Origin: Muribaculaceae bacterium
GTDB taxonomy: Bacteria; Bacteroidota; Bacteroidia; Bacteroidales; Muribaculaceae
NCBI GenBank assembly: GCA_029060285.1
Contig: JAIDUH010000030.1
Location: 1-61,803, forward strand
Length of the DNA stretch: 61,803 nt
Direction: 5' to 3'
This document shows positions 5,296 to 52,859 of the stretch, one piece after another. The translations under genes were made by a program, and so were the position numbers. Below the pieces are notes generated by a model, which did no database searches, was not told the DNA's origin, and saw only the letters and a list, made by a program, of their open reading frames with translations. Numbering within the stretch: position 1 is the stretch's first letter; each line of letters begins with the position of its first letter.

Positions 5296-6610
5296 ATTTC
5301 CAGGAATCGAATTGGAGGAGGTCAGAGCCATTGCCTGTAAAGACGAAATAAAGGTCGTGGATTCCGTCGCGCCTTATAGTCTTTGCTTTTTTCTCTGTCC
5401 AGTCAGCTCCGGAGGAAGCATCGAGAGTGGCGATGAGTTCACCATTGGGAGCATCAAGACGGACTTCAATTTTTGAACCCGGTTTGCCATTTCGGACACG
5501 GGCAGTGAAATCTTTTGCACCCTCACCGAAATTCACTTCCCTAAGCTTGATATAATCTCCGGGATCAACGTCGGACACATACACACAATCAATGTTGTCG
5601 TAGCCGATATTGATGCCTTCTTCCCAAGCAATGGTCTCCCCTTGCTGACGCACATATGGATTAAGTGGATCTGCACTCTTCAGCACTCCCCTCTTGTCAT
5701 GATGCATATAAGGGAGGGAGCCGTCTTCATTGAAATCAAAGGGTATGACGCTCGTGGTGCGACGCTTACTGTGGGCTGTAGGAAGCCCTTCGTCCATATA
5801 AAAGAAATACCATTGACCCTTATACTCGCACATACCGGTATGATTACCCATTCCGCCATGTTCAAATGCACGCATAAGCTGACCTCCGTATTTCCAAGGG
5901 CCGAGAGGAGAATCTGACCATGCCCAGTCGGTAGCCTCCGGACAGAACGATGCATAAGCGAGATAATATTTATCACCCCGCTTTGCAAGCCATGGAGCTT
6001 CCTCATAGTCAGGACCGAAAGCTTCCTTATCCTTGATTTCAAAGACTTTGATGTCTCCGTCGTAGCTTATCATATCATCGTTGAGTTTGACGGCATAGAG
6101 GGCGTTGTTGCCCCAATACATATATGCCTGTCCATCATCATCGATTAGAACGGTAGGATCGATATCTTCCCAGCCGTGCCCACTATAATTAGTGTCTTCT
6201 GAATTGATAAGGAATTTCTTGCCACCAAGGGGATTTGTGAACGGGCCGTAGGGTGAATCAGAGACAAGCACCGGGATTCCGAATGTGGATGTGTAATAAT
6301 ACCATTTTCCGTTACGGTAAGCCATCTGTGCCGCATATGCACAGTCTTTTGTGCCGAATCCTTCATTATTGAAAACCGGAGCATGATGAGTCCAGTTTAC
6401 CATATCGGTCGTAGTGAAGCATAAGTATTCGCGCATCACGAAATTATCGGGGTCCGCGGTAATATCGTCACAGCCGGTATAAAGATAGAGAGTGTCGCCC
6501 ACTACTATTGGAGCAGGGTCAGGAGTAAAGTGGGTTTGGCAGATGGGGTTTTGGGCAACGGCTAAAGCCGATGCCAGTAAGAGAGAGAGGTGGAATATGG
6601 ACTTTTTCAT
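5288..6610 (-). CDS. GH43 glycosidase with C-terminal CBM6
   Basis: A 440-aa secreted enzyme with a signal peptide (SALAVAQ). The five-bladed propeller shows the expected GH43 acids: base Asp in TPDPAPIV, modulator Asp in [12 protein letters not shown] and acid Glu in [10 protein letters not shown]. After about residue 310, a CBM6-type beta-sandwich ([12 protein letters not shown], then [20 protein letters not shown]) runs to the end. Its start overlaps the GH95 stop by 4 nt (ATGA), so the two are translationally coupled. It is paralogous to the GH43-CBM6 gene at 13657. Likely an arabinofuranosidase or xylosidase acting on xylan fragments; the exact activity cannot be read from sequence. Confidence 0.88.
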
Positions 6611-9057
6611 TTTGCTCGGGTGATTTTGTAGGTTTTACCGGGGGTTGTGTCGAGATCGTATTCGTATACTTTTAGGAGGAGTGGATAGGTTTTGGAAGTT
6701 TCATGACTAACTTCTGCGTCAGCTATTTTGACCGGGGACAGGAGAGGATTCTGTGTCTCACCTTCTGCTATAATCAGACCTTCCCCTTCTAGAGGAACAT
6801 AGGAACGAAGTCTTAGTTTTCCTCCTATGTTGGAATGAATATCAGCTTCAGCAAGTTGACCTTTGTTCCAGTTCATATCCACTGTATAGTTGCCTCGTGC
6901 TTTGAGACCTTTTACCTCGCCTTCGCTCCAAGTGTCGGGCAGAGCAGGAAGGAGCTGCACTGCACCATCATGGCTCTGCAGAAGCATTTCAGCTACACCT
7001 GCCGTAAAACCGAAATTACCGTCGATCTGGAACGGAGGATGGGCATCGAAAAGATTCGGATAGAGTCTTCCCGCTCCCCCACCGGAATAGTCAATCTGAG
7101 CAGACCCTGGAAGGAGAGTCACAAAATTATTGATAATCTTGTCGGCATGATTGCCATCAAGGAGTCGAGCCCAAAGGTTAAGTTTCCACCCGATGCTCCA
7201 TCCTGTAGCAGCATCTCCGCGTTGGATGAGGGAATTTTTAGCACCGACGAAAGCATTCGGGGTTGAATTAGGTGTGATCTGATTTGATGGATAAAGACCA
7301 TAGAGATGTGAGACGTGACGGTGCTGATCTTTAGGATCGTCAGCATCAACAGTCCATTCCTGAAGCTGACCGTAGCGACCCACTTTCATTGGTTGAAGTT
7401 TTGAGATTGTATTCTGGAGTTTAGCTAAATATTCAGCATCTTCACCGAGGATCTCAGCACACCTCAACGTATTGTTCAGAGCATCGAAAGCTATCTGATT
7501 GTCCATCGTGCATCCGGCTGTGATCCAGCTGCTGCCATAGCCGTGTTCGGGCGACATCGAAGGAGCTATGACAAGATAACCTGTACGAGGGTCCTCCACC
7601 ATTGCTGACATATAGAAATCAGCCGTACCCTTAATCGCAGGATAATACTTTTTCAAAAATTCCTTGTCACCGGTGTATAGATAGTGATCCCAAAGATGGG
7701 TAGCAAGCCAAGCACCACCGTTTGGCCACATTCCGTATCTTGCCATATCGACAGGACCGCAAACACGCCAAGCGTCAGTATTGTGATGAGCCACCCAACC
7801 ATCAGCACCATACAGAGTTTTGGCAGTTTCAGCCCCGGTATGGCTCAGATCTTCAATTAGATCGAAAAGCGGTTGATGGCATTCAGAAAGATTAGTTACT
7901 TCGGCAGGCCAATAGTTCATCTCAGCATTGATGTTGATAGTGTACTTGCTGTCCCATGGAGCGTAGTTAGATTCATTCCATACCCCCTGAAGATTTGCGG
8001 GTTGCCCACCGGGTTGCGATGATGAAATCAAAAGATAACGTCCATATTGGAACAATAGAGCGAGCAGAGAAGGATCATAATTGTTTTTGAAATCCGCTAC
8101 TCTCAAATGAGTCTCCTTATCAGAAGCTCCCGATGAAGGAAGAGTCAGAGAAACTCTGTCGAACTGCTGTTTGTAAGCATCAGTATGAGCAGCCGATGCA
8201 GAAGCATAGTCCTTTTTCATGGCATTTTTGAGAAGATTTGCCACGATTTTTTCGGGGTTGCCACTGATATCTTTGTAATTGACGTAGTTGGTAGCGGATG
8301 CAATATAAAGGGTAATATAGTCGGCATCCTCTACATTGAGCATCCCTTCCTTAGCAAAGACTTTGCCATTGCTTTTGACACGAATACCACATTTTGCAGT
8401 GAGTCCGGCGGGGATACCCTCATGCTCGCGGCCTGGAACGGTGATATCCATTCCCTTGCCGTTCATCTTGACAGTACCACCTTCGGGAGTGTCATATTCA
8501 AGAGAGATATTGAGTGCCTTACTTTTGTCAGCTGTAAGATTCATCATTATGACGCCATCAGGAAGTGAGGCGATTGTCTCACGCTTGAAAGTTACATCCC
8601 CGACTTTATAGCTGACTTCAGAAACAGCTTTGGAAATGTCGAGTTGACGGCGATAATCAGTTACTTCGGCAGTGTGATTGAAGTTTATGAAAAGAGAGCC
8701 GAGAGTTAAATAGCACATGCCATGATGAGGAGTCATGTAGTACTGGTCGATCAGTTTTTCGGCTTCTTTTTCATTGCCATCAAAGATCAGTCGACGTATT
8801 TCCTGAAGATGTTTTAATCCTTCAGGATTATTATTGTTGTGAGGGCTACCTGCCCAGAAAGTCTCGTCATTGAGCTGAATCCTCTCACGGTTGATGCCAC
8901 CGAAAATCATGGCACCCATACGGGAATTACCGACCGGAAGAGCTTCCACCCAAGCTTCTGCAGGATTGGAGTACCAGAGGGTAAGATCATCCGCAGCTTT
9001 AGCTGAGATAATACTGACAAGGGTTAGAATTGAAAGTATTAGATTTTTAATTTTCAT
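6607..9057 (-). CDS. GH95 alpha-L-fucosidase/alpha-L-galactosidase
   Basis: An 816-aa secreted enzyme with a signal peptide ending near ISAKA. GH95 landmarks include [21 protein letters not shown] at the N-terminal domain, NINAEMNYW (the asparagines that activate water) near residue 374, and a catalytic Asp in [10 protein letters not shown] near 632. Length is normal for the family. Some GH95 enzymes in Bacteroides xylan PULs remove L-galactose from corn glucuronoarabinoxylan, and the xylan context here favours that over L-fucose (inference). It is the first gene of the GH95-GH43-GH127/146 unit and has its own promoter and upstream box. Confidence 0.92.
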
Positions 9058-9085: not shown

Positions 9086-9116
9086 CAAAGTTAATAATAA
9101 AGATTGGAATAGCAAG
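9086..9116 (-). promoter_or_regulatory. Promoter of the GH95-GH43-GH127/146 unit
   Basis: On the minus strand: CTTG, 19 nt, TAACTTTG. This fits the Bacteroidetes -33/-7 consensus. The -7 box ends about 28 nt upstream of the GH95 start codon. Confidence 0.65.
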
Positions 9117-9159
9117 CATTGAGATGTCGCAATATCTTTTGACAATGGTAATATCAGAT

Positions 9160-9196
9160 AGGAATTTGTAGCATTTGGGTTAGAATTTGTCAACAT
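9160..9196 (-). promoter_or_regulatory. Candidate regulator half-sites, phased 21 bp apart
   Basis: The + strand reads ggaatttgtagcat (9161) and ttagaatttgtcaacat (9180); the TTTGT cores are exactly 21 bp apart. The distal copy shares TTAGAATTTGT with the site upstream of the GH43-xus unit and sits 86 nt from the -7 box. Confidence 0.5.
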
Positions 9197-43544: not shown

Positions 43545-45266
43545 TCAGTTGATAGACTCGGCGTTGGAGGCGTAGAGTCCTACGACCGTTCCGGTGAAAC
43601 CTCCGGCTTCAGCGGTGGAAGTGAATCCCGCATCGACATCGTCGGCAAGCAACTCCCACTTGTTGCCTCCATCAGTGGAATAATGGAATCCATATTTAAG
43701 TCCGTTTCCAAGAATCTTGAAGTCTACTTCAGACAGGGCTGCATCCACCGGGATCTCTGCTATGGTGTGGGAGCCGTCTTCCGCAATCTTTCTGACCTCT
43801 ATCTTATGATTGTCGCCGTGTCGCGTACGTGCCAACAGGTATTGATGCGTTTCGTCTTTCAGTATCAGCATCCCGGCAAGCTGCGAATCATTCTCGGGAA
43901 CGAAAGTCATATGTGTGCAAGCGCTGAAATTATGATGGTTGAGCCTGCGGCATACATATGGAAGAACCGCTTTCTCCCGCGACTTTACGTCGGCACATTT
44001 CACTGTGAGATGTCCTGGATGTTGGCTCAATGAATAGTAATCGGAGGCTGGACCGCGTAACGTCATCCATTCATTACCGAGAGTCGTATCCTTGAAATCA
44101 TCCTTACGATTGTAGTTTCCAAAGGTAAGTTTCTCTCCTCTCTTGACCCCGGATTTTTTTGCAAGCAGAGGGACCGCGTCGCCATTCTCTACAAATCGGG
44201 GCCAACCGTCAGCCGTCCAATTGACGGGGAGAAGGAATGTTTCCCGCCCAAGATTTTCCTTGCCACCTTCTACCGGACGACACGCGAGGAAGACGCCCCA
44301 CCACTCTCCTTCCGGAGTCTTCACCATATCCGCATGTCCGGCGCAAGTCACCGGATTTTCTCTTGACGGATCGAGCGTGCGCTGCGTAAGGATCGGATTT
44401 GCATCCCATGGGGTGAACGGACCGAAAGGAGAAGGGCCTTTGTAAATGACTTCGCTGTGCAAGTCGCCTGTGCCTCCTTCAGCTGTCATAAGATAGTAGT
44501 TGCCTCCCTCCTTATATATATGCGGACCTTCACACCAAATGGGTTTTTCTTCAGGACGACATCCCTTGTTGACCACTATCCGGCGCTCACCAACACATTT
44601 ATCGGTAGCTGGATCGAACTCCACGACTCGCACCGTACGATGCCCGTCATATTCAGCCAAACCATCGGGAGCATCGTCATTGTTGACGATATATCCCTTC
44701 CCATCCTCATCAAAGAAGAAAGCAGGGTCAATACCAGCTACCTCTGGCAGCATAATGGGATCGCTCCATTCTCCATACGGGTCTTTCGTCTTCACGAAGA
44801 AATTGCCGGCACCCACATTTGTCGTGACCATATAATAGGTTTCATTTGCAGGATTGTAAGCTATATCCGGAGCGAAGATGCCTCCACTGACGTGCTGCTT
44901 CTCCATGTTGACGAGTTGCGACTCGCGAGTCAGCACATGCCCAATCTGCTGCCAGTTGACAAGATCACGGCTATGGAAGATTGGCACACCCGGGAAATAG
45001 GTAAAAGTAGAAGTGACGAGAAAATAGTCGCCCTTACCGTTTGTGCAGAGCGAGGGATCCGAATACCATCCGGCAATTACCGGATTATAATAGGAACTTT
45101 CATCTGGAAGAGGATTGGCCTTGTAGAAATTGTCATCACCTTCGTAGCTGAACGAGTCAAAGATCGCCACAGAACTCTGCGGAGCAACGCCTGCCTTCTT
45201 CGAGGTGCAACCCGCGAGCAGAGCCAGACAGCCAAAGGCGATTGTGATGTTGGTCAGTTTCTTCAT
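43545..45266 (-). CDS. GH43 glycosidase lipoprotein with C-terminal sandwich
   Basis: A 573-aa lipoprotein (LALLAGCTSKK). The GH43 propeller shows Asp in IAGWYSDPSLC, Asp in EVAGIDPAFFFDEDG and Glu in IWCEGPHIYKE. Residues about 375-573 are a beta-sandwich (DDFKDTTLGNEWMTLRG, QHPGHLTVKC) of the concanavalin-like kind that completes the active site in some beta-xylosidases. First gene of the xus operon, carrying the candidate regulator boxes upstream. Likely a beta-xylosidase or arabinofuranosidase anchored in a membrane. Confidence 0.88.
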   Translation of the reverse strand: MKKLTNITIAFGCLALLAGCTSKKAGVAPQSSVAIFDSFSYEGDDNFYKANPLPDESSYYNPVIAGWYSDPSLCTNGKGDYFLVTSTFTYFPGVPIFHSRDLVNWQQIGHVLTRESQLVNMEKQHVSGGIFAPDIAYNPANETYYMVTTNVGAGNFFVKTKDPYGEWSDPIMLPEVAGIDPAFFFDEDGKGYIVNNDDAPDGLAEYDGHRTVRVVEFDPATDKCVGERRIVVNKGCRPEEKPIWCEGPHIYKEGGNYYLMTAEGGTGDLHSEVIYKGPSPFGPFTPWDANPILTQRTLDPSRENPVTCAGHADMVKTPEGEWWGVFLACRPVEGGKENLGRETFLLPVNWTADGWPRFVENGDAVPLLAKKSGVKRGEKLTFGNYNRKDDFKDTTLGNEWMTLRGPASDYYSLSQHPGHLTVKCADVKSREKAVLPYVCRRLNHHNFSACTHMTFVPENDSQLAGMLILKDETHQYLLARTRHGDNHKIEVRKIAEDGSHTIAEIPVDAALSEVDFKILGNGLKYGFHYSTDGGNKWELLADDVDAGFTSTAEAGGFTGTVVGLYASNAESIN

Positions 45267-45291: not shown

Positions 45292-45299
45292 CAAAATTA
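45292..45299 (-). promoter_or_regulatory. -7 box of the GH43-xus operon promoter
   Basis: The minus strand reads TAATTTTGC, a perfect TAnnTTTG, 26 nt from the GH43 start codon. There is no -33 TTTG at the usual spacing, which fits an activator-dependent promoter. Confidence 0.55.
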
Positions 45300-45349
45300 A
45301 TAATCTTTCCGTTTTCGCACGCGCGATGCGCTTTCATATGTGTCACTAT

Positions 45350-45364
45350 TTGTAACTTTTACAA
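45350..45364. promoter_or_regulatory. Candidate regulator site TTGTAA-CTT-TTACAA
   Basis: A perfect 6-bp inverted repeat with a 3-nt spacer. Its TTTGT core is 42 bp from that of the 45385 site, which is two times 21 bp. Confidence 0.4.
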
Positions 45365-45384
45365 TCAATCGCGTATCAAAAAGA

Positions 45385-45397
45385 TTAGAATTTGTAA
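45385..45397 (-). promoter_or_regulatory. Candidate HTCS box upstream of GH43-xus
   Basis: TTACAAATTCTAA on the minus strand, 85 nt upstream of the TAATTTTG box. The equivalent boxes are 86 nt (GH95) and 85 nt (GH115) from their -7 elements. Confidence 0.55.
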
Positions 45398-45750
45398 CAT
45401 CATTTTATATCATATTTAGTATCAATATTTTACAAATGTGATTTTATTTTCCATTTTTTCAGTGATAAAAGCATCATCCAGGGTGCCGGAGCATGACAAA
45501 AACAAAAAAAATATGGCTGACATGCGTCGCGCATCCCAGCCCTCATTCTACCTAATAACTAAACCTATAATCAATCTTTACTAAAAAAATCGTCATTTGT
45601 AAGGTAGCGGTCAAGCCTAAACCTACCTAATATTAACCTATTTATATCAATCAATTGTATTCTATTATCAACGATGAACGAAAAACGATCAGCAATCAAC
45701 TCTCAATCAACCGTATTTAAGCCGAGCTGACAGGGTCAATTTTCATATTG

Positions 45751-45758
45751 CAAAATTA
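45751..45758 (-). promoter_or_regulatory. Possible second upstream -7 box
   Basis: TAATTTTGCA on the minus strand. If used it would give a leader of about 480 nt before GH43. No -33 match. Confidence 0.3.
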
Positions 45759-45864
45759 CAAAGAAAATCCCTAACCCTCATACATCTATGTAACTCATAT
45801 ATTTCTCAATGGTTACACTCCATTCAAATCTGCATCCGATGAATACAAATTCGTCAACTACACC

Positions 45865-45916
45865 AAGAGCGAGCTGCCCTGCTTAGAAAATTTTCTAAGC
45901 AGGGCAGCTCGCTCTT
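45865..45916. repeat. 52-bp perfect palindrome downstream of the HTCS gene
   Basis: Two 26-nt arms with no spacer, centred on AAAATTTT and starting AAGAGCGAGCTGCCCTGC. It begins 21 nt beyond the HTCS stop. It can fold as a very stable hairpin, but no T run follows on either strand, so it is not a standard intrinsic terminator. Confidence 0.9.
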
Positions 45917-45937: not shown

Positions 45938-48900
45938 TTACCCCTCCTTCTTCAACTCTACGCCGACATCAGCTCCAGACAGACTCTTAGCCCTATATTC
46001 TGAAGGGGAGAATCCCGTATAGCGCTTAAAATGGGATGAGAAATGAGGTTGCGACGTAAATCCTATCTTATAAGCCACTTGTGTCACTTCTATGTCAGGA
46101 CGGCGCAAAAGCTCGCATGCCCTCTTAAGCCTAATATTACGAATATAGTCGCTTGGAGTCATTCCAATAAGCTCCTTCATCTTGCGATGCAGATGAGCCC
46201 GGCTGACACCTACCTCCGACGCGAGTTTCTCGACATTGAGTTCGGGATCGTCGATATGTGCGTTGATTTCCTTCATAATCCTGTCGAGAAGCACCTCATC
46301 GTTACCTTTCATTTCAGGGGCGTCGATCTTTCCTTCAGTCTCTTGAGCGCCTGAGAATTTCCCCTTCATACGCAGCCGGTTTTCGATCAGAGTGTCCACA
46401 AGCGCTGCAAGCTCATCAATATTGAAAGGCTTGCCAAGATAGCCATCAGCACCCTTATCCCAGCCCGCCATCCTGTCGGAGATAGCTGTCTTTGAACTAA
46501 GAAGAATTACCGGGATATGATTGGTATCGGCATTCGACTTCAATCTCTTGAGCAATGTCAAGCCATCCATCGAAGGCATCACCACATCGCTCACAATGAG
46601 ATCCGGCTTCCAGTCAGCTACAATTTTCAAAGCTTCATTACCGTCAGCAGCCTCTTTCACCTTATAATAATTGGCTAAAACTGAAGACAAATATCCGCGC
46701 AGCTCTGCATCATCATCGACAACAAGCACCTTTCCTCCTGCCGTCAAGGGCTTTGGCCTTGACGGCAGATCTACAGCTGTAGATCCGTTTGGCATCAGCA
46801 GATGCCGTCCTTGCACATCCTCTTCATCAGGCCTTTCAATAAGCTCTCCATCTCCATAGAAAGACTCTTCTATTGGAATGACAACCGTAAACACACTTCC
46901 TTTTATGCCGTCTTCACGGTTTAACGCTGTAATCCTACCATGATGAAGCATGACGAGACGGCGACATAAATCAAGCCCTATTCCAAAGCCCATTGTGGCG
47001 GGTGCATGATCCTCTCGGATACGGTAGAATGGTTCGAAAAGCCTTGGCAATGCCTTTTCATCCAAGCCTATGCCGGTATCTTTAACCGACACTTCCAGAC
47101 ATTTCCCGAGCTTTTCATCATCCATAGTATCCACCGACACATCAATGGAGCCCCCATCCGGCGTATACTTAATCGCATTGGAAATAAGATTGACCATGAT
47201 CTTATCGAAATTATCCCTGTCAAGCCAGACATCACCGGGATTACTTATTTCAGTAAAGGTCAGGGTCTGTTTCTTACCAGCAGCCTGCGTAGCAAACAGC
47301 TCAACAAGCTCCTTGACGAATGCCACTGCATTCGTCTTCCGGCAACTAAGGCGCATCTTCCCTTTATCAAGTTTGCTGATGTCAAGGAGCTGATTAAGCA
47401 ATCCCATAACCCTTTGGGCATTACGGTGCATCACATTAAGTTTGGCAGAGACATCCGAATCATGCGGCTCTTTCATCAAAGACTCAAGAGGACTCATCAC
47501 GAGCGTCATAGGTGTGCGTATATCATGAGAGACATCTGTGAAGAACTTAATCTTCTCCTCATTGATTTTTTCTGCGCGACGCTTCTTAAACAGCCCCCAG
47601 GCAAGAATTATGAATACCAGCAAAAGCACAAGATAGATGACTTTAGCCAAGCCTGTCCAATACCATGGAAGTGCCACACGAATCTTTATCAATGTCACGG
47701 GAGACACTGCGTTATTTTCCACAGCACATATCTCAAGATCATATTTACCGGGATCAAGATGAGGAAGATATACCATATTGTCTCCGGGCGCCGTCTCAAT
47801 CCAATCATCTTTCTTATCCAACCTCCACCTATAGCGGATATTGGAGGCGTCACGGAAATCCATGGTAGAAAGCCTGAGCGTAAGTGCATTATCCTTATAT
47901 GGAAGGTGAAGCATCTCAGGCGACAGCATGCTTCCTTTGATCATAACATGGCAACCGGACTTCATATTTGGAAGGATACGCTTGCCGTTAAGATACATAG
48001 CCGAGACCTTTATCTTGTAGTCCAATTCTGGAGCAGGGACAGAATCGGGCATAAACGCCGTAATGCCAAGATCGCTGCCCAAATAAATCCCCTTACGCGA
48101 AGGAGAATACTTTATCTGATTGAAAGTGGTCTCGACCAGCCCATTGCCTCCATAATATGACAATATCTTAGAATTATCAGGAGTAAGATAAGAGAGCCCA
48201 TTCATGGTCCCGATCCATTTGCCACCGTTATGGTCGCGCGATATGGTGCGAACATCATTATCACTCAAGCCGTCGGCAGTAGTGTATTTACGAATCACCC
48301 CTTTCTCGGGGTCAAAATGTATCAGACCGTGGCTCGTGCCTACCCATATTGAATTATCGGTCATGCACGGGACAATTGCAAAAGTTGCACCACGCAGGAA
48401 AGGCTCCTGATCAAGTTCCAACAATTTATCAGTCTTGAGATCATAGCATGCAATGCCGCTGTAAAGACCTATCCAAACTTTCCCATCTGCCGTATGATTC
48501 AGACTCGTGATATACGGATTTGTCAGCTGGTTGCCATCCGGATCATATGGAATCCATTTTTTCTCACCGGTCTTAAAGTCATACCGCATCAAGCCCAATC
48601 CATACACACCGATAAAGAGCTCTCCGTCATTTCCGGGTGCAGAGACTATTGAAGCATACTTACCTGGAATGTCAACAAACTTCCTGACATCGCCCGAAGG
48701 CAGCGACAACTCCCAAATGCCATCATCCGCCACACCTATCAGAGCCTTGTCGCCGTCGATGAGCTCGATATGCGTTATCTTTGATGCTCCCGGAACCGTA
48801 GCCACCATAAGCACCTTTCCACCGGACCCATACATGACGACGCGTCCTTTATCGAGAGCCACCAAAGAATGACCTTTCCATTCATTCAAAGCACCGGGAC

Positions 48901-49939
48901 CACCTATAAAATCGGGGAATGAGTCGGAGAATTTCCTATATAAAAAAGGTATATGACGTCCCGGCAGTAGCACTATGCCCCTATAGTTGCAACCAAGCCA
49001 AAGGTCGCCTGCTGGAGAAGTATAGGCTGCCCCTATCTTGGCATCATCAATATCAAGAAATGCACAATGCATGTCCCGGCACTTTTCTACAACATCTGAT
49101 TTCGTCTCCACCTCCCATAATCCATTGCCGGAAGTTGCGACATATACCTTCCCTCCAGCGGAATTGGAGAGGTTGGCAATAGATATCTTGCCATCTATAG
49201 AAAGTCTTGAAAACGATCCTGAACGACTATCGATCCGATAAATTTCATTTAGAGTACTCACGATGACATTATCATCTTCTTCTACAGCCAGAGCCAATAT
49301 GTATGACTCATCGGTCACTTTGATCGGAGAGATCTTTCCATTGGGAGCCATGCAAAAGACAGTACCATCATGCGAGCCCAGAAAAATCTTTCCATTGCGG
49401 CAACATGCAATGGAATTATAGTCTTTTTGCATCAGACCCCCCGGATACATCACAGCCACAGGATTGCCCGACGAATCATCAACCACATACACGCCGACAC
49501 CGGACACGATAAATGTCACAGTACCGTCAGATTGTTCACCTAAACCATTTATGTATCCATACAGATCTTTCGAAGGCAATGTGATCACCTGAAAAGAATC
49601 ACTTTCTGGCATATAAAGGTTTAGGCCATTGGCAGTTGCCACCCAAATCCTGCCTTTTGAGTCGCTCATCACGTGGAGGACCCGATTATCAGAAAGAGAA
49701 CCCTCAACCGCATCATCATGACGATATATGTCGCAGTCATTTCCTTCAAACCGGATTAGTCCACGATTTGTAGCTATCCAAAGGAATCCGTCAACATCCT
49801 GACAGAATCCCGAGTATTCTCCTGCTATCACGTCAGGATCATTTATGAGCCGTCCGGTGCGAGCACCTGCTCCATAGGATGGAAGCCATATCAATTGAGT
49901 CAGCAGGATCAACGCCAACGATATTATAGAGGGTTTCAT
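45938..49939 (-). CDS. Hybrid two-component system sensor/regulator (HTCS)
   Basis: A 1333-aa one-protein signalling system. Signal peptide; periplasmic two-propeller sensor made of many short repeats (GFLWIATNRGLIRFEGND, GRIWVATANGLNLY, KVWIGLYSGIACYD, SIWVGTSHGLIHFD); Y_Y_Y domain about 680-750; one membrane helix near 760-780 (VIYLVLLLVFIILAWGLF); histidine kinase with His near 804 (DVSHDIRTP) and ATPase motifs; receiver with Asp near 1117 (LIVSDVVMPSMDG); C-terminal AraC-type helix-turn-helix (GFTSQPHFSSHFKRYTGFSP). In related loci this type senses xylo-oligosaccharides (P. bryantii XynR is a known example). It has its own perfect promoter and probably controls this PUL. Confidence 0.95.
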   Translation of the reverse strand: MKPSIISLALILLTQLIWLPSYGAGARTGRLINDPDVIAGEYSGFCQDVDGFLWIATNRGLIRFEGNDCDIYRHDDAVEGSLSDNRVLHVMSDSKGRIWVATANGLNLYMPESDSFQVITLPSKDLYGYINGLGEQSDGTVTFIVSGVGVYVVDDSSGNPVAVMYPGGLMQKDYNSIACCRNGKIFLGSHDGTVFCMAPNGKISPIKVTDESYILALAVEEDDNVIVSTLNEIYRIDSRSGSFSRLSIDGKISIANLSNSAGGKVYVATSGNGLWEVETKSDVVEKCRDMHCAFLDIDDAKIGAAYTSPAGDLWLGCNYRGIVLLPGRHIPFLYRKFSDSFPDFIGGPGALNEWKGHSLVALDKGRVVMYGSGGKVLMVATVPGASKITHIELIDGDKALIGVADDGIWELSLPSGDVRKFVDIPGKYASIVSAPGNDGELFIGVYGLGLMRYDFKTGEKKWIPYDPDGNQLTNPYITSLNHTADGKVWIGLYSGIACYDLKTDKLLELDQEPFLRGATFAIVPCMTDNSIWVGTSHGLIHFDPEKGVIRKYTTADGLSDNDVRTISRDHNGGKWIGTMNGLSYLTPDNSKILSYYGGNGLVETTFNQIKYSPSRKGIYLGSDLGITAFMPDSVPAPELDYKIKVSAMYLNGKRILPNMKSGCHVMIKGSMLSPEMLHLPYKDNALTLRLSTMDFRDASNIRYRWRLDKKDDWIETAPGDNMVYLPHLDPGKYDLEICAVENNAVSPVTLIKIRVALPWYWTGLAKVIYLVLLLVFIILAWGLFKKRRAEKINEEKIKFFTDVSHDIRTPMTLVMSPLESLMKEPHDSDVSAKLNVMHRNAQRVMGLLNQLLDISKLDKGKMRLSCRKTNAVAFVKELVELFATQAAGKKQTLTFTEISNPGDVWLDRDNFDKIMVNLISNAIKYTPDGGSIDVSVDTMDDEKLGKCLEVSVKDTGIGLDEKALPRLFEPFYRIREDHAPATMGFGIGLDLCRRLVMLHHGRITALNREDGIKGSVFTVVIPIEESFYGDGELIERPDEEDVQGRHLLMPNGSTAVDLPSRPKPLTAGGKVLVVDDDAELRGYLSSVLANYYKVKEAADGNEALKIVADWKPDLIVSDVVMPSMDGLTLLKRLKSNADTNHIPVILLSSKTAISDRMAGWDKGADGYLGKPFNIDELAALVDTLIENRLRMKGKFSGAQETEGKIDAPEMKGNDEVLLDRIMKEINAHIDDPELNVEKLASEVGVSRAHLHRKMKELIGMTPSDYIRNIRLKRACELLRRPDIEVTQVAYKIGFTSQPHFSSHFKRYTGFSPSEYRAKSLSGADVGVELKKEG

Positions 49940-50009: not shown

Positions 50010-50041
50010 CAAATTTATATAAAATTGTCAAATATCACAAA
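50010..50041 (-). promoter_or_regulatory. Promoter of the HTCS gene
   Basis: On the minus strand TTTG, 20 nt, TAAATTTG: an exact match to the Bacteroidetes vegetative promoter, about 70 nt before the ATG. This suggests steady basal expression of the sensor. Confidence 0.8.
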
Positions 50042-50046
50042 TCTTA

Positions 50047-50080
50047 CATTAAAATTCGTAACATTTTACGAATTTTAATG
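50047..50080. promoter_or_regulatory. 34-bp inverted repeat, candidate regulator operator
   Basis: Perfect 15-bp arms (CATTAAAATTCGTAA and its complement) around CATT. It lies 5 nt upstream of the HTCS -33 box. Its right arm contains TTACGAATTTTAA, 85 nt from the GH115 -7 box and similar to the GH43 and GH95 boxes. Confidence 0.65.
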
Positions 50081-50163
50081 CGAGAAACGGATTATTTTTG
50101 GTGTATGAGACCCTAAATAACATGTTCTATACTAAAAAAAATGAGACATATTCTAATTTTTTA

Positions 50164-50171
50164 TAATTTTG
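50164..50171 (+). promoter_or_regulatory. -7 box of the GH115 promoter
   Basis: TAATTTTG (within TATAATTTTGC) with no -33 TTTG at the normal distance, as for the GH43 unit. Gives a leader of about 80 nt. Confidence 0.55.
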
Positions 50172-50258: not shown

Positions 50259-52859
50259 ATGAACCGCATCAAATCTATTGTCGTCACATTCATTTGCAGT
50301 CTTGCACTTCTGAGTCCTTCCCGAATGACTGCCCTTGACAACTATGGGATCACAAGTGACACCCCAAAGGTAGGATACTTTCCGCTGATAACTTCAGATC
50401 AGGGCAACTCCACCCCGACTTCCATCGTAATGTCGGGAAAAGATCTACCCGGAATTGAAATAGCTGCGGAAAACCTCTCAGATGATTTCAAAAAAGTATG
50501 CGGGACTGCCGCCAATTTGATTAAAACGGAAAAAATTTCGCATGAAAACGGTATACCCTCCAATGTCATAATTGCAGGATCAGTGGAAAGTTCCGTGATA
50601 AAGGATCTTTTCAAGAATAAAAAGCTCAATGAGAAAGATCTCAAAGGGAAATTTGAAAAATATATAATGACAACTGTCGAAAATCCATATCCCGGTATCG
50701 AGAAGGCACTTGTCATAGCCGGAAGCGACCGCAGAGGCACAATATACGGCATTTATGAGCTTTCCGAGCAACTCGGAGTGTCTCCTTGGTATGATTGGGC
50801 AGATGTGCCTCCGACAAAACATGACGAACTATATATATCTGACGGCACGTACACAGCCGGAGAACCGGCTGTCAAATACCGCGGTATTTTCCTAAACGAC
50901 GAGGCTCCTTGCCTGACAAGCTGGGTCAAGAACACTTATGGCACAGACTATGGCGACCATCGCTTCTATGCACGTGTTTTCGAACTTTTGCTTCGACTTC
51001 GTGCCAATTTCATGTGGCCTGCCATGTGGGGATGGGCTTTCTATGCAGATGACCCCGAAAATCTTAATACTGCCGACAAGATGGGTATAATAATGGGCAC
51101 TTCTCATCATGAGCCGATGGCGCGCAACCACCAAGAATGGGCCCGCCACCGCAAAGAGAACGGAGCCTGGAACTATTCTACCAACCAAGAAGTCATTGAC
51201 CGCTTCTTCACAGAAGGCATACAGCGCATGAAGAACACGGAAGACGTAGTGACAATCGGAATGCGTGGCGACGGGGATGAAGCAATGAGCGCGGAGGCAG
51301 ATGTGGCACTCCTAAAGAAAGTAATTGACAATCAAAGGAAGATTATAGCAAAGGAGACCGGCAAGAAAGCAAAGGAAACTCCTCAAGTATGGGCACTGTA
51401 CAAAGAGGTGCTGGATTATTATGATGCAGGACTGCGTGCGCCGGACGATGTCATCTACCTTCTTTGTGATGACAATTGGGGAAATGTCAGAAGGCTTCCA
51501 AATGCTGAAGAAAGGAAACATCCGGGGGGATGGGGAATGTATTACCACGTAGACTATGTAGGAGCTCCACGAAACAGTAAGCTCCTGAACTGCACGCCTA
51601 TACAGAATATGTGGGAACAACTTGAACTTACCTTCGACTATGGAGTAGACAAACTCTGGATACTTAATGTAGGGGATCTGAAGCCTATGGAATATCCCAT
51701 AACGCTTTTCCTTGACATGGCTTGGAATCCTAAACAATTTACATCTGAAAATCTCTTAGGACACACGCTTAGATTCTTCGAGCAACAGCTTGGCCCGGAC
51801 CAGGCTAAAGAAGCTACGAGAATCTTCAATCTTCTTTGCAAATACAATGGCAGGGTGACCCCGGAAATGCTCGACCGCAATACTTATAATGTTCATACCG
51901 GTGAATGGAAGGAAGTGGCAGATGACTATATGCGACTTGAGGCTGAGGCTCTTCGCCAATATCTAACTCTCAGACCCGAACTAAGAGATGCTTACAATGA
52001 GCTTATACTTTTCCCACTGCAGCTGATGAGCAATCTTTATCAGATGTATTACGCCCAGGCCATGAACCACCATGCATATGCCAATGGTCTTCCGGAAGCT
52101 AATGAATGGGCAGCAGAAGTGAAGCGTTGCTTTGACCGGGATGCAGAACTGATGAAAAGCTACAACAAAGATATTGCCGGCGGGAAATGGGACGGCATGA
52201 TGACCCAGAAACATATCGGCTATAAGAGCTGGAACGATAATTTCCCTGCAGAAATACTTCCGAAGACCTCTACCCTTGATTCGGCGGAGAGGAATGCCGG
52301 TGGATATGCATTCAAGCCTGTGGATGGAGCCATTGTGATTGAGGCAGAGCATTTCAATACTGCCGAAAATGCCGCAAGTGGAGCTAAGTGGGAAGTATTG
52401 CCCTACATTGGACGTACATTAAGTGGAGTAGCAGTAAGACCTTATACGGAAAATCCGGAAGGAGCCGCGTTGAAGTATGCTGTCACATTACCGGAAGGCA
52501 CAGACAGCGTGACTGTGCATGTAATCACGAAATCAACACTTGCTTTCGACCGTAAAGAGGGACACAGATATACAGTGGGATTCGTGGGAAGTGAACCCGC
52601 AGAGGTTAATTTCAATGGCAACCTGAACGAGGAATCACAGAATATATACAGTGTCTTCTATCCGACAGTCGCACGCAGAGTAGTAGAGAAAAAAATACCA
52701 TTGAAAGTTGCAAAATCAGGAGAGAGCACACTTGAGATCAAACCGCTTGATCCGGGAATCGTTTTTGAAAAGATTGTCATCGACTTCGGAGGGTATGAGC
52801 CATCTTACCTTTTCGGCAAAGAAAGCCCTGTACAACGATTAACGATCAATGATAAATGA
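50259..52859 (+). CDS. GH115 xylan alpha-1,2-(methyl)glucuronidase
   Basis: The ATG at 50259 (MNRIKSIVVTFICSLALL) gives a good signal peptide; the ORF start 30 nt earlier adds nothing. The 866-aa product has the GH115 order: small alpha/beta domain (VIAGSDRRGTIYGIYELSEQLGVSPWYDWADVPP), barrel (YRGIFLNDEAPCL, RLRANFMWPAMW, MGTSHHEPMARN, VTIGMRGDGDEAM, VDYVGAPRNSKLLN), helical domain and C-terminal sandwich. It removes (4-O-methyl)glucuronic acid from glucuronoxylan. Transcribed away from the HTCS gene. Its last seven codons lie inside a 7-nt tandem repeat. Confidence 0.94.
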   Translation: MNRIKSIVVTFICSLALLSPSRMTALDNYGITSDTPKVGYFPLITSDQGNSTPTSIVMSGKDLPGIEIAAENLSDDFKKVCGTAANLIKTEKISHENGIPSNVIIAGSVESSVIKDLFKNKKLNEKDLKGKFEKYIMTTVENPYPGIEKALVIAGSDRRGTIYGIYELSEQLGVSPWYDWADVPPTKHDELYISDGTYTAGEPAVKYRGIFLNDEAPCLTSWVKNTYGTDYGDHRFYARVFELLLRLRANFMWPAMWGWAFYADDPENLNTADKMGIIMGTSHHEPMARNHQEWARHRKENGAWNYSTNQEVIDRFFTEGIQRMKNTEDVVTIGMRGDGDEAMSAEADVALLKKVIDNQRKIIAKETGKKAKETPQVWALYKEVLDYYDAGLRAPDDVIYLLCDDNWGNVRRLPNAEERKHPGGWGMYYHVDYVGAPRNSKLLNCTPIQNMWEQLELTFDYGVDKLWILNVGDLKPMEYPITLFLDMAWNPKQFTSENLLGHTLRFFEQQLGPDQAKEATRIFNLLCKYNGRVTPEMLDRNTYNVHTGEWKEVADDYMRLEAEALRQYLTLRPELRDAYNELILFPLQLMSNLYQMYYAQAMNHHAYANGLPEANEWAAEVKRCFDRDAELMKSYNKDIAGGKWDGMMTQKHIGYKSWNDNFPAEILPKTSTLDSAERNAGGYAFKPVDGAIVIEAEHFNTAENAASGAKWEVLPYIGRTLSGVAVRPYTENPEGAALKYAVTLPEGTDSVTVHVITKSTLAFDRKEGHRYTVGFVGSEPAEVNFNGNLNEESQNIYSVFYPTVARRVVEKKIPLKVAKSGESTLEIKPLDPGIVFEKIVIDFGGYEPSYLFGKESPVQRLTINDK

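Follow-up and report, generated by a model that had tools for sequence, protein, structure and literature searches.

The window analysed here, a stretch of 61,803 nucleotides from a Muribaculaceae draft assembly that is 81% complete, carries a xylan PUL whose genes, as assigned by Pfam, comprise GH43, two susC/D pairs, GH10s, esterases, GH31, GH97, GH95, GH127, GH115 and an HTCS; the second susC-like gene, for which Pfam gave no hit at the cut-off, was named from its place. The GH43 beta-xylosidase-type gene (43545..45266, minus strand) is the first of the xus operon and is followed by tandem susC/susD, and the GH95 gene (6607..9057, minus strand) is the first of the unit GH95-GH43-GH127. The GH115 alpha-glucuronidase-type gene (50259..52859, plus strand) is divergent from the gene of the HTCS (45938..49939, minus strand), the proposed activator, which combines a Reg_prop/Y_Y_Y sensor, a TM segment, HisKA and HATPase_c domains with the kinase motif SHDIRTP, a receiver with the motif SDVVMP and an AraC-type HTH in one chain. 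An orthologous HTCS is present in 24 of 111 genomes of the genus, and the order GH115-HTCS-GH43-susC is largely kept among the orthologous loci, which carry the labels Muribaculaceae or Porphyromonadaceae MAGs. A separate promoter for GH95 was present only in the source genome and two of its nearest relatives; at the corresponding place in the remaining related loci, no -7 element was found.

The initial annotation had described a box shared by three promoters of this locus at a fixed distance from the -7 element. We found the same gaps between box and TAnnTTTG, namely 85 nt for GH43-xus (box at 45395, minus strand), 86 nt for GH95 (9190, minus strand) and 85 nt for GH115 (50068, plus strand), with the -7 elements being TAATTTTG (45292..45299, minus strand), TAACTTTG (9086..9093, minus strand) and TAATTTTG (50164..50171, plus strand), respectively. 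By pattern count, the box ACRAATTYTAA has four matches in the window versus 0.31 expected, and these are four of the 11 matches in the whole 3.29-Mb draft, of which the window makes up 1.9%. The combination of box, 84-87 nt and TAnnTTTG occurred three times in the window and in 0 of 300 dinucleotide shuffles, none of which had two boxes at a common gap, so that the spacing is indeed hard to obtain by chance. A genome scan for the single box showed TAnnTTTG at 85/86 nt from none of the seven copies outside the window. These copies were rejected, including one with TAnnTTTG at 87 nt (L056), which had no tandem units. With regard to the elements of Bacteroidota primary sigma promoters, TAnnTTTG was present at the predicted -7 in all four promoters, those of GH43, GH95, GH115 and the HTCS gene, and TTTG at -33 was present in the HTCS promoter but missing from the GH43 and GH115 promoters, as annotated, and likewise from that of GH95. 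In many GH43-xus promoters, the GC-rich sequence CGCGCG replaces TTTG at the -33 place (45315-45330, minus strand, in the window).

When 16 orthologous GH43 promoters were aligned on the -7 TAnnTTTG, there were zero indels over 98 bp, a distance that was constant whereas that from -7 to ATG varied widely. Units start at -101, -80 and -59, and the C at -95, -74 and -53 is invariant, giving a period of 21 bp. TGNNAC was found in slot 1 of 14/16, slot 2 of 16/16 and slot 3 of 10/16 promoters, and in slot 4 TGNNA is often kept, its A being invariant in the 16, although part of this agreement is shared ancestry because the promoters are related by descent. In the predicted operator, half-sites with the core TGNNAC follow one another as direct repeats every 21 bp, or two helical turns, like the rungs of a ladder. 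Counted from where the -7 TAnnTTTG begins, the slots lie at -100, -79, -58 and -37. An HTCS operator is expected to consist of direct repeats whose half-site centres are about 21 bp apart, as observed here. The half-site in this HTCS subfamily is roughly TGTTAC[AG]AATNNTAA. The 13-nt box is slot 1, one half-site of this ladder, and the anatomy first described was therefore incomplete; the 85/86-nt constant is the distance from slot 1 to -7, i.e., the length of the ladder.

At GH43-xus, all on the minus strand, slot 1, the annotated box, is ATGTTACAAATTCTAAT (45384..45400, with TGNNAC at -100), slot 2, in which all orthologous promoters have TGNNAC, is TTGATACGCGATTGATT (45363..45379), slot 3 is AAGTTACAAATAGTGAC (45342..45358), and slot 4 (45321..45337) is a degenerate TGNNA (ATGAAAG). 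The GH95 promoter, also on the minus strand, has AC in all four slots, its register being displaced by 1 bp, with TGTTGACAAATTCTAAC in slot 1 (9179..9195), ATGCTACAAATTCCTAT in slot 2 (9158..9174), the weak TATTACCATTGTCAAAA in slot 3 (9137..9153) and TTGCGACATCTCAATGC in slot 4 (9116..9132), the full TGNNAC being present in slots 2 and 4. At GH115 (plus strand), slots 1, 3 and 4 are recognisable as ATTTTACGAATTTTAAT (50063..50079), ATGAGACCCTAAATAAC (50105..50121, with TGNNAC) and the weak TCTATACTAAAAAAAAT (50126..50142), and there is no recognisable half-site at the position of slot 2. A PWM built from the GH43 units only placed the GH115/GH95 units mostly at 96/97, 75/76 and 54/55 from -7. 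Some orthologous promoters were displaced by exactly 21 bp, such as the GH115 array of one related locus (L014), which lies exactly one slot nearer to -7; in another (L016), one GH115 unit is off register. With the window left out of training, an array model ranked the GH43-xus, GH95 and GH115 promoters 1-3 of 50 TAnnTTTG sites and found no array at the other window promoters (GH105-GH154, 53189 and 59139), the first two of which had already been annotated as having no box at 85/86 nt. Adjacent-slot pairs of the form ACRRAT-N15-ACRRAT numbered 10 in the source genome versus 11 in a reversed control, and among these pairs the register relative to -7 was found only at the GH95 promoter and the promoter of HTCS2, a paralogous HTCS.

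A fourth identical box, missed in the initial annotation, lies at 50059 (minus strand; ATGTTACGAATTTTAAT, 50048..50064) and faces the HTCS gene. It is 31 nt from the -7 element of that gene, TAAATTTG (50010..50017, minus strand), and outside the 21-bp register; the initial annotation, which had reported no box 85 nt from the -7 element of the HTCS promoter, was correct in this. Back to back with the GH115 box, it forms a perfect palindrome (50048-50079) in the divergent HTCS-GH115 promoter, which is conserved in orthologues, and it is the HTCS-facing half that is off register. This fourth box is probably an autoregulatory site of different geometry.

A spacing-blind scan of the 111 genomes, with incomplete drafts among them, used 961 spacing combinations and yielded 61 matches, of which 14 had a total length of 106 bp; no other single length occurred more than four times. 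All 14 were located in the 24 genomes with an HTCS orthologue, the other 87 having none (Fisher, 8.7e-8), and they precede GH43-xus (11 matches), GH43/CBM6-GH5 (two) or a xylose isomerase gene (one). Box and spacing are therefore kept in related genomes, the conservation check proposed with the initial annotation, in both the 16 GH43 promoters and the 14 exact-spacing matches, and, as expected of an HTCS operator, the array is conserved before orthologous PUL genes in genomes with an orthologous HTCS. The array is retained by the GH43 promoters of 21 HTCS genomes, weakly in L177, the most divergent of them; the GH43 locus of L161 is too short to be read for it. In one genome without the HTCS orthologue (G107), the GH43 homologue has no array promoter. 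The xylA with the array in genome G076 (L134) is one of two xylA copies and lies on the HTCS contig, and G059 (L135) carries the array before xylA as well. Standard xylA operons, including that of the source genome, have no array, which rules out xylose catabolism in general as a member of the regulon.

The phase of the register (TGNNAC at -100/-79/-58/-37) was fixed on the GH43 promoters before being used elsewhere. At nine distant HTCS loci, 12/37 TGNNAC sites were in phase (P=8e-8), and in a test specified beforehand on 19 fresh HTCS loci (29-39% identity), drawn from other genera and families, 35/93 were in phase versus 4.4 expected (P=1.6e-22), with 17 promoters having a TGNNAC pair 21 bp apart. 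The binomial P values assume that TGNNAC sites are independent of one another, which does not hold for paired sites, and they are therefore somewhat too small; the contrast with 20 random regions of the same genomes, where 4/40 sites were in phase (P=0.12) and no pairs were found, is unaffected by this. In-phase sites were found close to the HTCS gene (17/48 vs. 6/80). A strict in-register pair was present in only 9/19 of the distant loci, and slot use differed, with distant HTCSs mostly using -58 and -37 and the xylan HTCS described here using -100, -79 and -58. These data suggest, with somewhat better than even odds in our view, that one geometric code extends across Bacteroidales HTCS promoters, in which TGNNAC prefers -37/-58/-79/-100, different HTCSs fill different slots, regulons are readable from sequence and long arrays hold two membrane-bound dimers in tandem.

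We estimate a probability of about 85% for a reading in which the box forms the half-site of a predicted HTCS operator that lies farthest from the promoter, together with the ladder, activation by dimers, the constant distance from slot 1 to -7 and a probable autoregulatory fourth box. To judge from the sequence comparisons, the HTCS is very probably the protein that docks on the ladder. The earlier assignment of the box as the activator site of the AraC-type output domain of the HTCS thus holds in kind, given the 14/14 exact-spacing matches in HTCS genomes and the register at distant HTCS loci but not in random regions, and fails for the box as the whole site. In E. coli araBAD, the AraC sites I1-I2 are half-sites repeated directly in tandem with a spacing of about 21 bp, the proximal one being beside -35. 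The half-sites here are similar, although AraC is a cytoplasmic one-component factor and the present regulator a membrane-bound hybrid kinase acting at Bacteroidota promoters. The periplasmic sensor would bind a xylo-oligosaccharide, the receiver would be phosphorylated and the AraC-type domains would be freed (PMC11253607); an HTCS dimer may then occupy neighbouring slots on one DNA face and, by analogy with AraC, contact RNA polymerase, and arrays of three or four slots may take a second dimer upstream. The polymerase, carrying the primary sigma factor, would in this way be recruited to promoters having -7 but no -33 TTTG, and the lack of a -33 TTTG at the three predicted targets is consistent with a need for an activator. 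Counting against this reading are the unrecognisable slot 2 at GH115, the 1-bp shift at GH95 and the off-register box at the HTCS gene.

Chance coincidence combined with shared promoter ancestry might be invoked since the promoters are A-T rich and the GH43 promoters are orthologous. We consider this highly improbable, as it is contradicted by the 0/300 shuffles, by the register test at distant loci, by a geometry common to three non-homologous promoters of the window and to xylA and GH43-GH5 promoters elsewhere, and by the fact that within the same promoters the -7-to-ATG distance varies but the 98-bp distance does not. Repeats in tandem at a spacing of about 21 bp are used by one-component AraC proteins too, and the box could belong to such a protein or to another unrelated regulator common to xylan genes (Crp-like or LacI). 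That all 14 exact-spacing matches fall in HTCS genomes, and that in other families the register is enriched beside the HTCS genes of unrelated loci but absent in random regions, makes an owner of this kind quite unlikely; for a Crp-type protein, moreover, the direct repeats are at odds with the 22-bp palindrome given as the Bacteroides Crp-type motif in the part of PMC3878776 considered here.

A less improbable alternative, which we still regard as doubtful, is that HTCS2 (contig C176) reads the array or shares it with the HTCS of the window, resulting in a cross-talking xylan regulon with two sensors. HTCS2 is 40% identical overall and about 51% identical in the receiver-HTH region. Slot arrays are present both at the promoter of its susC operon, which contains TTACGAATTTGAAT 99 bp from -7, and at its own promoter, where slots 1, 2 and 4 are filled (L077, G000 C176). 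Since HTCS2 has a similar box, the sequence of the box is not enough to tell which HTCS binds. In B. xylanisolvens, one xylan HTCS has been published as cross-regulating a second PUL, according to the sections of PMC4855328 used here. The arrays, however, sit in the PUL of the first HTCS with conserved synteny, and several genomes with the GH43 array (e.g., G056, G067, G073, G078 and G098, not all of them complete drafts) have no HTCS2-like match at E<=1e-200, which favours the window's own HTCS as the predicted binder.

Tandem repeats with a 21-bp period have been known as a predicted HTCS motif since 2013: in Bacteroides thetaiotaomicron, which has 36 HTCSs, the predicted motifs were direct repeats with an average of 21 bp between conserved sites (Ravcheev 2013, PMC3878776, in part). 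As in our locus, those repeats lie upstream of PUL operons beside the HTCS gene, and a dimer on one DNA face was proposed; the B. thetaiotaomicron motif has two conserved sites, whereas the array here has three plus a degenerate fourth, phase-locked to -7. The passages of that paper covered here give no promoter distance, and a word search of the paper had no match for 'transcription start'. In the open-access literature, supplements aside, we found no description of the -7 phase lock or of three- to four-slot arrays. B. xylanisolvens PUL 43 is likewise a xylan PUL with an HTCS (BXY_29350), tandem susC/D, GH10, GH43, GH95 and GH115; as far as the portions consulted describe (PMC4855328), knockout of BXY_29350 represses the operons of PUL 43 as well as genes belonging to another PUL, and the mutant shows reduced growth on xylose, unexplained there. 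That system is from a different genus, and its operator is not defined in those portions (PMC4855328). HTCS response-regulator fragments of BT4124 and BT4663 bind susCD promoters in a phosphorylation-dependent manner; they have an AraC-type output in common with the HTCS described here but serve other glycans, and their sites are not dissected in the main text, as far as covered (PMC11253607).

Bacteroidota genomes can hold dozens of HTCSs, with direct targets established for few. If true, a slot code tied to -7 would make HTCS regulon prediction a simple, testable scan and would explain why some promoters have a -7 element but no -33 box. In some species, the PUL-borne xylA would tie a gene of xylose catabolism to the xylan sensor. 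Within the PUL analysed here, a second TAATTTTG with a weak in-register array (11 bits) is present at 45751-45880 (minus strand), between the HTCS gene and GH43, with only a very short reading frame downstream, and it is perhaps a relict promoter. In some related loci, the gap between the HTCS gene and GH43 contains extra genes.
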